Source: Myxococcales bacterium | Lineage (GTDB): Bacteria > Myxococcota > Myxococcia > Myxococcales > Anaeromyxobacteraceae | Length of the DNA: 64,000 nt | Assembly: GCA_021806645.1 (NCBI GenBank) | Contig: JAJZQX010000005.1 | Location: 124,001 to 188,000 of the forward strand | Direction: 5' to 3' | In this document: positions 23,892 to 27,589 of the stretch, in pieces | How positions within the stretch are numbered: the first letter of the stretch is position 1 | Layout of the letters: each line of letters starts with the position of its first letter | Position numbers and translations under genes: made by a program | Notes under the pieces: generated by a model | Seen by the model: the letters and a program-made list of their open reading frames with translations, nothing else | The model's database searches: none | Told to the model about the DNA's origin: nothing

Positions 23892-24240
23892 GGTGTCCTC
23901 TTCCTTCGGACTGCGGTTGGCGCGAGCCGAGGGCCGCGAGGGCCGCCTCCAGCTCGCCACGTGCGTGAAGATCCTGCCGGCGGGCCGCCGCGGCCATGCC
24001 GTCCTGGTAGGCCCGGGCCGCCTCGCCGTCCCGCCCCGCCGCCTCGAGCGTCTGCCCGAGCATCAGCCAGGTCGGGATGTAGTCCGGGGTGCGCGCCGTG
24101 AGCTCGGTGAAGGCCTCCACGGCCTCGGCGAGCCGGTCCATGGACCTGAGGTGCATGGCCAGCGCGTAGCGGGTGAAGGGATCGTCGGGCCTGGCCTGGG
24201 CGAACCTCTGGAAGGCCTCGAGCCGCTGCTCCGGGGTCAT
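23884..24240 (-). CDS. Small TPR protein
   Basis: 118 residues, starting MTPEQRLEAFQRFAQARPDD. Two to three tetratricopeptide units are visible: PFTRYALAMHLRSMDRLAEA, then TPDYIPTWLMLGQTLEAAGR and DGEAARAYQDGMAAA. It has no signal peptide or catalytic motif. It is translationally coupled to fabI by an 8-bp overlap. Similar small TPR genes are common in myxobacteria. A role in fatty-acid synthesis is only suggested by the coupling. Confidence 0.75.
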   Translation of the reverse strand: MTPEQRLEAFQRFAQARPDDPFTRYALAMHLRSMDRLAEAVEAFTELTARTPDYIPTWLMLGQTLEAAGRDGEAARAYQDGMAAAARRQDLHARGELEAALAALGSRQPQSEGRGHHE

Positions 24241-24304
24241 CGAACCGGGCTACATACACGAATCGGGCGCCTGGGTCCACGCCTCGGGGTGCTACGCTCC
24301 CGGT

Positions 24305-24910
24305 GTGGCCGTTCCGTACCCCGACATCACCGGCGCGCTCATCGCCGGCGGCCGTGCCACTCGGATGGGGGGCGTGGCGAAGGGGCTGCTCCGGCTCGAC
24401 GGGCGGCCGTTGCTGGCGCGCTCGCTCGACCTCTTCGGCCGGCTCTTCGGCGCCTCGCTGCTGGTGGCCAGCGACCCGCTCCCGTACGCCGCGTTCGACG
24501 TCCCGCGCGTCGGCGATCGGCTCCCCGGCCGCGGCGCGCCAGGCGGACTTCACGCCGCGTTGAGCGTGGCCCCCACGCCGTGGGTCTTCGCCGCCGGCTG
24601 CGACATGCCCTTCCTCTCGGCCCAGGGGATAGCGCTGCTGGCGGCCCGCCGCGCCGGGGCCATGGCGGTGGTGCCCCGCTGGAGCGGCCGGCTCGAGCCG
24701 CTCCACGCCCTCTGGTCTCGCCAGGCGCTCCCGGCGCTGGAGCGGGCGCTGGCAGAGGGAGACCTGTCGCTGCAGCGGCTGGCCACGCTGGTGGCGGCGG
24801 TGGTCGTCGAGCCGGCGGCCTGGTGCGTCGTGGACCCGGGCGGGCGGGCCTTCCTGAACGCCAACACCCCCGAGGAGGCGGCGCGGCTCGGGCTGGAGCG
24901 CATCCCCTGA
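24305..24910 (+). CDS. mobA: Molybdenum cofactor guanylyltransferase MobA
   Basis: Attaches GMP to molybdopterin to make the bis-MGD cofactor of DMSO-reductase-type enzymes. About 201 residues. I placed the start at GTG 24305 (VAVPYPDITG), just ahead of the nucleotide loop ALIAGGRATRMGGVAKGLL, the family LxGGxxxRMGxxK motif. DMPFLS supplies the metal-binding Asp region and NANTPEEAARL is the C-terminal conserved motif. Its neighbour 43 bp downstream is the selenoprotein gene described below. Formate dehydrogenases use both Mo-bis-MGD and selenocysteine, but none is in the window. Confidence 0.92.
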   Translation: MAVPYPDITGALIAGGRATRMGGVAKGLLRLDGRPLLARSLDLFGRLFGASLLVASDPLPYAAFDVPRVGDRLPGRGAPGGLHAALSVAPTPWVFAAGCDMPFLSAQGIALLAARRAGAMAVVPRWSGRLEPLHALWSRQALPALERALAEGDLSLQRLATLVAAVVVEPAAWCVVDPGGRAFLNANTPEEAARLGLERIP

Positions 24911-24953: not shown

Positions 24954-25571
24954 ATGTCCTTGAAGGTCACCCTCTACTCCGACTTCGTCTGACCCTTCTG
25001 CTTCGTCGCCGAAGCGAGCAGCCTGGTCAGGCTGCAGGAAGAGTACGACGTCGAGCTCGACTGGCGGGGCTTCGAGCTCCACCCCGACACGCCGCCGGGC
25101 GGGCGCCGGCTGGCCGACCTCTTCGGCGAGGCGCGGAGCCGCGAGATGCGCGACTACCTCGGCCGCTTCGCCGCCCAGTTCGGCGTCACCGGCATGACCT
25201 TCCGCGACGTGATGCCGAGCACGCGCCGGGCGCTGGCCGTGGCCGAGTACGCCCGCGACCAGCGGAAGCTCCACCCGTTCCGCGCCGCGGCCATGGAGGC
25301 GGCCTGGCGCCACGGGCAGGACGTCGAGGACCCCGAGGTGCTGGCCCTCTGCGCCCGCTCGGCCGGGCTCGACCCGGTGGCGGCGGTGGAGGCCTTCGAC
25401 GAGCCGAAGTACCTGGCGCGCGTCATGACCATGGGGGCCGAGGCGCGCCGGATGGGCGTCACCGGCATCCCCACCGTGCTGATCGGGGGGCGGCGCGTGG
25501 TCGGCTGCCAGCCCTACGAAGCGCTGAAGGCGGCGGCCGAGGCCGAAGGGGCGAAGCGGCGGTCGTGGTGA
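24954..25571 (+). CDS. Selenocysteine-containing DsbA/FrnE-like thioredoxin-fold oxidoreductase
   Basis: ATG 24954 starts MSLKVTLYSDFV, then an in-frame TGA (24990-24992), then PFCFVAEASSLVRLQEEY, and the frame stays open to 25571 (205 residues counting the TGA). Relatives read SDFVCPFCF or SDFVCPWCY at this point, so the TGA replaces exactly the first, nucleophilic Cys of the CxxC site, giving U13-P-F-C16. The rest is intact: WRGFELHPDTPPGG, a helical insert, the cis-Pro loop VTGIPTVLIGG and VVGCQPYEALKAA. A hairpin with a GGUC loop lies 25 nt after the TGA. A selenoprotein is far more likely than a nonsense mutation. It probably acts as a thiol-disulfide oxidoreductase or reductase in the cytosol, since there is no signal peptide. 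Confidence 0.88.
25018..25035 (+). promoter_or_regulatory. Bacterial SECIS element (selenocysteine insertion hairpin)
   Basis: GCAGCCT, loop GGTC, AGGCTGC: a perfect 7-bp stem capped by a GGUC tetraloop. It lies inside the coding sequence, with the first loop G 33 nt after the last base of the in-frame TGA. The loop sequence is the same as the SelB-binding GGUC apex of the E. coli fdhF SECIS. The TGA-to-loop distance is in the range accepted for bacterial SECIS elements (roughly 16-37 nt). Confidence 0.85.
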
Positions 25572-25581
25572 GTGGTTCGCC

Positions 25582-27453
25582 TCATCCGTCGTGGCGCGGG
25601 CCGCGGCGGACCGCGTGGCCGTCGCCGCTCACGGGACGAGGCGTGTGGCCCCCGGACCGAGCGGCCGCGGGCCGGTGCGCGCCCGGGCGGCTCCCGGGCA
25701 CGCCGTGCTCAACGGGTCGGTGCTCCACGGGTCGGTGCTCCACGGGTCGGTGCTCCGCCGGCCGGCGCTCGGCCGGGCCAGGCGCCTGGGGCCGGGTGGC
25801 GTCGGGGGGACGCCCCGCCAGCACCTCGCCAGGTGGACGGGCCGGCTCGATCCGGACGCCAGGGGCGCGAGGGTCGGGGACGCGCGCCGCCGCCGCGAAC
25901 CGGGCGGCGGCTCCCTTGGCCACCTCGAAGCGGGTCTCGGAGGCGAGGATGACTATCTTCCCGATCTCGTCGCGGGTGACGCCGCCGCGCCGGCACAGGA
26001 GCGGCAGGACCCACTTCGGGTCGGCCTTCTTCTCCCGGCCGACCGAGATGCGGAACCAGGCGGCCTCGGCCGGCGGTCCCGGGCGAGCTGCTCGCGGTCC
26101 GCGAGGGGTCTCGCTGGCCGCCCGCGCCGTTTCCGGAAGCTCCTCGGGGGCCGGCAACGCCGCCCGGGCCCGGCGCAGCAGCGCCAGCGCCACCGCCACC
26201 GGCTCGCGTCCGGCCAGCAGCGCGCGAGCGGTCGCCAGCTCCTCCTCGGCCGCCTCGGCGACCGCGCCAGACACCTCGGTCGCCAGCCGCGCCTCGTCCT
26301 GGCGCAGGATCAGGTCGGCGGTCGGCACCGGCGCCCACTCCGGCGTCACCCCCGCCTCGCGCAGCATCCGCTCCAGCTTGTACCGCTCCTGCGGAGAGGC
26401 CAGCAGCACCGCCAGCCCCTTCTTGCCGGCCCGGCCGGTGCGGCCGCTCCGGTGCTGCAGCGCCGAGGCGTCCTGGGGCAGGTCGGCGTGGAGCACCAGC
26501 TCGATGCCCGGCAGGTCGAGGCCGCGCGCCGCCACGTCGGTGGCCACCAGCACGCGGGCCCGGCCGTCGCGCAGCGACTTCAAGGCCCGCAGCCGCTCCG
26601 ACTGGGTGAGCTCGCCGGAGATGGCCACCGTCTCGAAGCCGCGCTCGCCCAGCGAGGCGGCGGTGTGGGTGACCGCCTCGCGCCGCGCCCGGAAGACCAG
26701 CGCGCTGGCCGGCTCGAGCGCCCGCAGCACGTTGACGATGGCGTGGTCGCGCTCGCGCTGCGCCACGACGTGGGCCCGGTAGGTGATGTCCTCGTGGGCC
26801 TGCCTGGGCGGCGTGGCCGTGACCCGCACCGGCTCGCGGGTGTAGGCCCTGGCCAGCTCGACGATCGGCTTCGGCAGCGTGGCCGAGAAGAGGATGGTGC
26901 GCCGCCCCGGCGGGGCCGCCTCCAGGATGGTCTCCAGCTCCTCGCGGAAGCCCATGTCGAGCATCTCGTCGGCCTCGTCGAGCACCAGCGCTCCCAGCGC
27001 CGAGAGGTCGAGGACGTGGCGGGAGATGTGGTCGACGAGCCGGCCGGGCGTCCCCACCACGACGTGGACGCCGGCCTTGAGGGCCTGGGCCTCGCGCCGC
27101 GGGTCGAGGCCGCCGACGCAGGCGGTGACGACGGCGCCGGCCGGGCCGAGCAGCCAGGCCAGCTCGCGCTGCACCTGCACCGCCAGCTCGCGCGTCGGCG
27201 CGATCACCAGCGCCAGGGGTGGTCCGCCGCGACCGAAGCCGGGCGCGTCCCCGATCAGCGTCTCGGCCATGACCAGGCCGAAGGCGACGGTCTTGCCCGA
27301 GCCGGTGCGCGACGAGACCAGCAGGTCCTTGCCGCGCAGGGCCGGATCGAGCACGGCCGCCTGCACCGGCGTCGGCTCGGCGTAACCGTGGGCGGCCAGC
27401 GCGCGCTGCAGCGCGGGATGTGCGGCCAGCGAGGCGAAGTCGGGAGCGCTCAC
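25582..27453 (-). CDS. DEAD-box RNA helicase (CsdA/DbpA-like)
   Basis: About 623 residues. I favour GTG 27453 (VSAPDFASLAAHPAL), preceded by AAGGGG; an ATG at 27480 is the alternative. The helicase core has AEPTPVQAAVLDPAL (Q motif), RTGSGKTVAFGL, PTRELAVQVQ, VLDEADEMLDMGF, FSATLPK and HRSGRTGRAGKKG, in order. Residues about 500-560 (WFRISVGREKKADPKWVLPL) resemble the DbpA-type RNA-binding domain. The tail is an Arg/Pro/His-rich extension with tandem HRPVE repeats. It probably remodels ribosomal or structured RNA. It converges on the selenoprotein gene with a 10-bp gap. Confidence 0.92.
   Translation of the reverse strand: MSAPDFASLAAHPALQRALAAHGYAEPTPVQAAVLDPALRGKDLLVSSRTGSGKTVAFGLVMAETLIGDAPGFGRGGPPLALVIAPTRELAVQVQRELAWLLGPAGAVVTACVGGLDPRREAQALKAGVHVVVGTPGRLVDHISRHVLDLSALGALVLDEADEMLDMGFREELETILEAAPPGRRTILFSATLPKPIVELARAYTREPVRVTATPPRQAHEDITYRAHVVAQRERDHAIVNVLRALEPASALVFRARREAVTHTAASLGERGFETVAISGELTQSERLRALKSLRDGRARVLVATDVAARGLDLPGIELVLHADLPQDASALQHRSGRTGRAGKKGLAVLLASPQERYKLERMLREAGVTPEWAPVPTADLILRQDEARLATEVSGAVAEAAEEELATARALLAGREPVAVALALLRRARAALPAPEELPETARAASETPRGPRAARPGPPAEAAWFRISVGREKKADPKWVLPLLCRRGGVTRDEIGKIVILASETRFEVAKGAAARFAAAARVPDPRAPGVRIEPARPPGEVLAGRPPDATRPQAPGPAERRPAEHRPVEHRPVEHRPVEHGVPGSRPGAHRPAAARSGGHTPRPVSGDGHAVRRGPRHDG
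25705..25755. repeat. 15-bp tandem repeat in the helicase tail
   Basis: CACGGGTCGGTGCTC is repeated twice perfectly (25726-25740, 25741-25755) and once with one change (25711-25725). It encodes HRPVE units in the disordered C-terminus of the DEAD-box helicase. The unit is a multiple of three bases, so copy changes keep the frame. Confidence 0.85.
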
Positions 27454-27589
27454 GATCCCCTTGTAGCAGAGCGCGGCCATCCTTGCCGCTTGACCCGCCC
27501 CCCCCGCCCCCCGCACCATCCTCCGCCTGTCCAGCGCCGACCCTTACGCCTCGCTCCGCTTCCCCGAGTACCGCGCCTTCCTCGCGGCG

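Follow-up and report, generated by a model that had tools for sequence, protein, structure and literature searches.

The gene at positions 24954-25571 (plus strand) of the window, the 64,000-nucleotide stretch of Myxococcales DNA analysed here, very probably (about 0.96) encodes a cytoplasmic FrnE-like oxidoreductase of the DsbA superfamily, whose nucleophile would be a selenocysteine (Sec) decoded by means of an RNA hairpin at 25018-25035. The reading frame, the Sec machinery of the genome, the conserved codon, and the SECIS element together indicate that selenium is almost certainly incorporated at residue 13. An earlier note on this DNA had proposed a DsbA/FrnE-like selenoprotein; the proposal is borne out by the presence of selABCD, by conservation of the TGA codon, and by a covarying bSECIS that occurs in Sec forms only.

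The frame opens with ATG at 24954, contains a single internal stop, the TGA of codon 13 (24990-24992, plus strand), and then runs for 192 codons without a stop to the terminal codon at 25569-25571 (plus strand), which is also TGA and has no proposed SECIS of its own. These coordinates agree exactly with those proposed earlier, and the internal TGA indeed stands for the first Cys of a C-P-F-C site, which becomes U-P-F-C (U13 to C16) in the 205-residue product. The thioredoxin-fold protein expected from read-through is complete: it matches PF01323 over residues 5-194 (8.8e-33, 114.1 bits, cut-off 25.6). The genome has 10 matches to this family, and this gene is the only one with a TGA inside. 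A mechanical open reading frame call at the locus gives 25146-25571 only (141 amino acids), precisely the fragment that had been anticipated. Standard gene calling shortens or skips this gene and its relatives, and their annotation should be corrected.

Codon 13 is TGA in 32 distinct homologous 48-mers and TGC or TGT in 14 Cys homologues. Even though these counts include related sequences, so that statistics on them do not describe independent draws, a TGA shared at one position by 32 homologues is far beyond chance. A phylum-level search returned many more distant homologues with one TGA, the codon position of which was not checked singly. None of the relatives was found on viral contigs. Plasmid matches were ordinary homologues with identity below 60%.

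All four components of Sec decoding that the earlier note had asked for were found in the genome, which was searched over 4.14 Mb and is 99% complete: tRNA-Sec (selC) with anticodon TCA (UCA in the tRNA) at C29 (74.3 bits), selB at C33 (307.5 bits when both of its pieces are counted, against a cut-off of 242), selA at C5 (488.7 bits, cut-off 268), and selD at C7 (385.3 bits, cut-off 125). The frame of selD (L026 1351-2427) is itself broken by a TGA and reads GAGUACK when this codon is taken as Sec; by its sequence, selD is a predicted selenoprotein and serves as an internal positive control. An in-frame UGA with protein continuing past it could also reflect near-cognate read-through or a general reassignment of UGA, for example to Trp. 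We give this explanation a negligible probability, because the gene's own terminator is TGA, the internal UGA sits precisely on the catalytic Cys, and tRNA-Sec, SelB, and a SECIS are all present.

The proposed bSECIS is the upper hairpin GCAGCCU-GGUC-AGGCUGC at 25018-25035 (plus strand), 32 nt past the UGA, with a 7-bp stem and the loop GGUC at 25025-25028. In a published bSECIS model (PMC13188914), the loop has 3-9 nt with a G in its first two positions, the stem has 4-16 bp, the distance from the UGA is 16-37 nt, and the minimum free energy is -7.5 or lower. The hairpin agrees with the four structural features (4 nt, GGUC, 7 bp, 32 nt), and its predicted energy of -11.1 kcal/mol lies within the limit. 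The stability of the 56-nt region is not unusual against shuffled sequences (z -1.59), and several hairpins of single homologues are less stable than -7.5 kcal/mol. Stretches of 48-56 nt, folded singly for minimum energy, give mutually inconsistent structures, so we rely on covariation and codon constraint; the support for the SECIS comes from conservation and not from energy alone. Across 23 distinct Sec sequences, 94.4% of cells are paired, versus 16-48% when the stem is slid and 52.4% in six Cys homologues. Two pairs are altered on both sides (G-C to C-G and C-G to U-A), and the covariation score was equalled by none of 500 shuffles. All 32 distinct Sec sequences have a loop that begins with GG, against none of the 14 Cys sequences, and the full GGTC is present in 30 of the 32. 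In the homologues L047 and L037 the stem is broken or shortened. An Rfam search near the gene gave no meaningful match.

The stem also leaves a mark on codon choice. Arg26 (25029-25031, plus strand) is encoded by the rare codon AGG, which 30 of the 32 Sec sequences use at this position; elsewhere, AGG accounts for 18 of 430 downstream Arg codons in the 23-sequence homologue set and for none of the 22 in the rest of this gene. We attribute the use of AGG here to the requirement of the SECIS stem. Shared descent makes any formal P value for the SECIS/AGG signal too small; the spread over five phyla, in which the proteins are about 50-55% identical, nevertheless argues for constraint on the RNA. 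The sharp co-occurrence of the TGA, the GGUC loop, and the AGG codon makes this family a good case for defining the bSECIS.

Recoding could also be genuine and depend on a different element, in which UGACC pairs with GGUCA (24990-24994 with 25025-25029) below a CUGCU-AGCAG stem, placing GGUC within a stem. This fold is chosen for the 56-nt stretch and predicted for some single sequences, and 96.1% of its cells are paired in Sec forms. The protein code, however, largely dictates its 5' arm, none of its pairs is altered on both sides, and its pairing is not in excess of shuffles; the competing hairpin at 25018-25035 covaries and agrees with the published loop rule. We consider UGACC/GGUCA improbable as the SECIS and, given its lack of covariation, rank it second. 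The two folds are mutually exclusive and could alternate.

Relatives of the gene carry either Sec or Cys at the active site. Of 24 genomes from the same family, 15 have it, with TGA in 14 and TGC in one. The TGC-bearing genome (G023) is the closest relative and is identical or close to L029, a metagenome-assembled genome (MAG) of Anaeromyxobacter sp. Its Cys orthologue (L029 4001-4609 / L110 1501-2109) is 84% identical, with Cys at codon 13 and no SECIS, and occupies the same locus, flanked by fabI/mobA on one side and a DEAD-box helicase on the other. This genome retains selA, tRNA-Sec, and a TGA-containing selD, so loss of Sec use does not explain its Cys form; since the closest orthologue has Cys, Sec is not indispensable. 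MAGs attributed, perhaps wrongly in some cases, to Chloroflexota, Gemmatimonadota, Acidobacteriota, and Marinimicrobia/Fidelibacterota likewise carry TGA forms. On a quick tree, the Sec and Cys labels need five changes, at least four of them forced by starred branches; this count carries no direction. That Sec and Cys have been switched at a single locus within a genus, with Sec machinery in both genomes, is the most useful addition to the original observation, and the orthologue pair amounts to a natural experiment, and a clean one, on what makes a disulfide enzyme acquire or give up selenium. As a separate observation, several family members (L118-L120) lie inside longer open frames of 449-511 codons with stops read through.

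The TGC of the closest relative is also what would make a pseudogene or a sequencing error conceivable: a single base, mutated or misread, would account for the TGA, and the protein would be lost or made from 25146 only. That TGA is kept at codon 13 across five phyla, that the SECIS hairpin and the rare AGG accompany TGA and are missing with TGC, and that the aligned relatives have no other disabling change all contradict this, and we reject the pseudogene reading as very improbable on the strength of the conserved TGA and SECIS. The earlier note had likewise thought a pseudogene unlikely, and had named as evidence against a selenoprotein a genome without selABCD/selC or close relatives that all lack a Cys or Sec codon and carry further lesions. 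Both were looked for; the genome has the genes, codon 13 of the relatives is a Cys codon or TGA, and those aligned carry no other disabling mutation.

The protein itself fits the FrnE type. Among solved structures, its nearest match is Deinococcus radiodurans FrnE (2.3e-17), and an AlphaFold model built from 30 sequences (mean pLDDT 96.8) has its best PDB matches in the same protein (TM 0.83-0.86, 0.86 with 5co3), followed by S. coelicolor SCO1869. Both active-site features of the DsbA superfamily are present, U13-P-F-C16 and the invariant P173 of the cis-Pro loop (TGIP). No N-terminal signal peptide is evident from sequence or model: residues 3-9 form the first strand, and with the active site already at residue 13 there is no space for one, so a cytoplasmic location is likely. 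In the proposed mechanism, SelB with Sec-tRNA(UCA) would bind the hairpin at 25018-25035, and the UGA at 24990 would be decoded as Sec, whereas the identical codon at 25569 would terminate. The U13 selenolate would then attack a substrate disulfide positioned by the cis-Pro loop, and C16 would resolve the mixed selenenyl-sulfide. The enzyme most likely reduces or isomerises disulfides, like D. radiodurans FrnE, which has been described as acting in the cytoplasm as a disulfide reductase or isomerase (PMC8945050).

Comparison with D. radiodurans FrnE (DR_0659; PDB 5cnw, 5co3, and 5xwh) shows the same fold, an equally placed CxxC/UxxC active site, and no evident signal peptide in either protein; the window protein differs in having Sec for Cys, in its 26-29% identity, and in lacking the C-terminal CxxxxC extension. 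In D. radiodurans this extension helps to regenerate the active site, and some FrnE proteins are likewise without it (PMC8945050). As the motif is missing from the 205 residues, with no Cys beyond C185, we dropped this route of regeneration. Cys185 (25506-25508 of the window) lies in GCQPY near the last helix and is mostly kept in the clade; distant FrnE-like homologues carry Ala at this position (GAQP). It is a possible lineage-specific third redox thiol. A cytoplasmic Sec-FrnE subfamily in which C185 forms a Sec/Cys/Cys relay, and in which Sec and Cys were exchanged several times, once at the same locus within a genus, with the machinery kept, is a rather improbable extension.

Selenoproteins of this kind have been predicted before, as the earlier note said. 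DsbA-like UxxC proteins were reported from the Sargasso Sea in 2005 (PMC1088965), a 2006 list includes one from Anaeromyxobacter dehalogenans (PMC1794560), and "DsbA-like protein form 1" (UxxC) is an entry in reviews and in PMC13188914. The window protein has in common with that family PF01323, the UxxC motif, and a bacterial SECIS, and the A. dehalogenans case falls in the genus assigned to our best-named relative (L029); that they belong to one subfamily is suggested by names and organism and not by sequences. Sec-containing FrnE is also recorded in green algae (PMC6627142) and in SelenoDB 2.0 (PMC3965025); the algal proteins resemble ours in having Sec in a FrnE/DsbA-type protein but are eukaryotic, and are likened here by description only. 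The kind of protein is thus known and the member is new, and the gene is a well-supported further example. The Rcas_1661 family of thioredoxin-like (seleno)lipoproteins (NF041057) also comprises thioredoxin-fold selenoproteins and gave a partial match; this scores 39.7 bits, short of the cut-off of 190, and covers the C-terminal part only, so membership was rejected.

The gene lies 43 nt downstream of a MobA-like NTP transferase frame (24173-24910, plus strand), whose true start may be further in; the MobA-like frame lies upstream in the closest relatives too. Downstream follows a convergent DEAD-box/DbpA-type RNA helicase (25582-27519, minus strand), which marks the same locus in L029 and L110. 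Near the C-terminus of the helicase, short tandem repeats at 25710-25760 of the window (gtcggtgctccacgg) encode HRPVE repeats on the minus strand.
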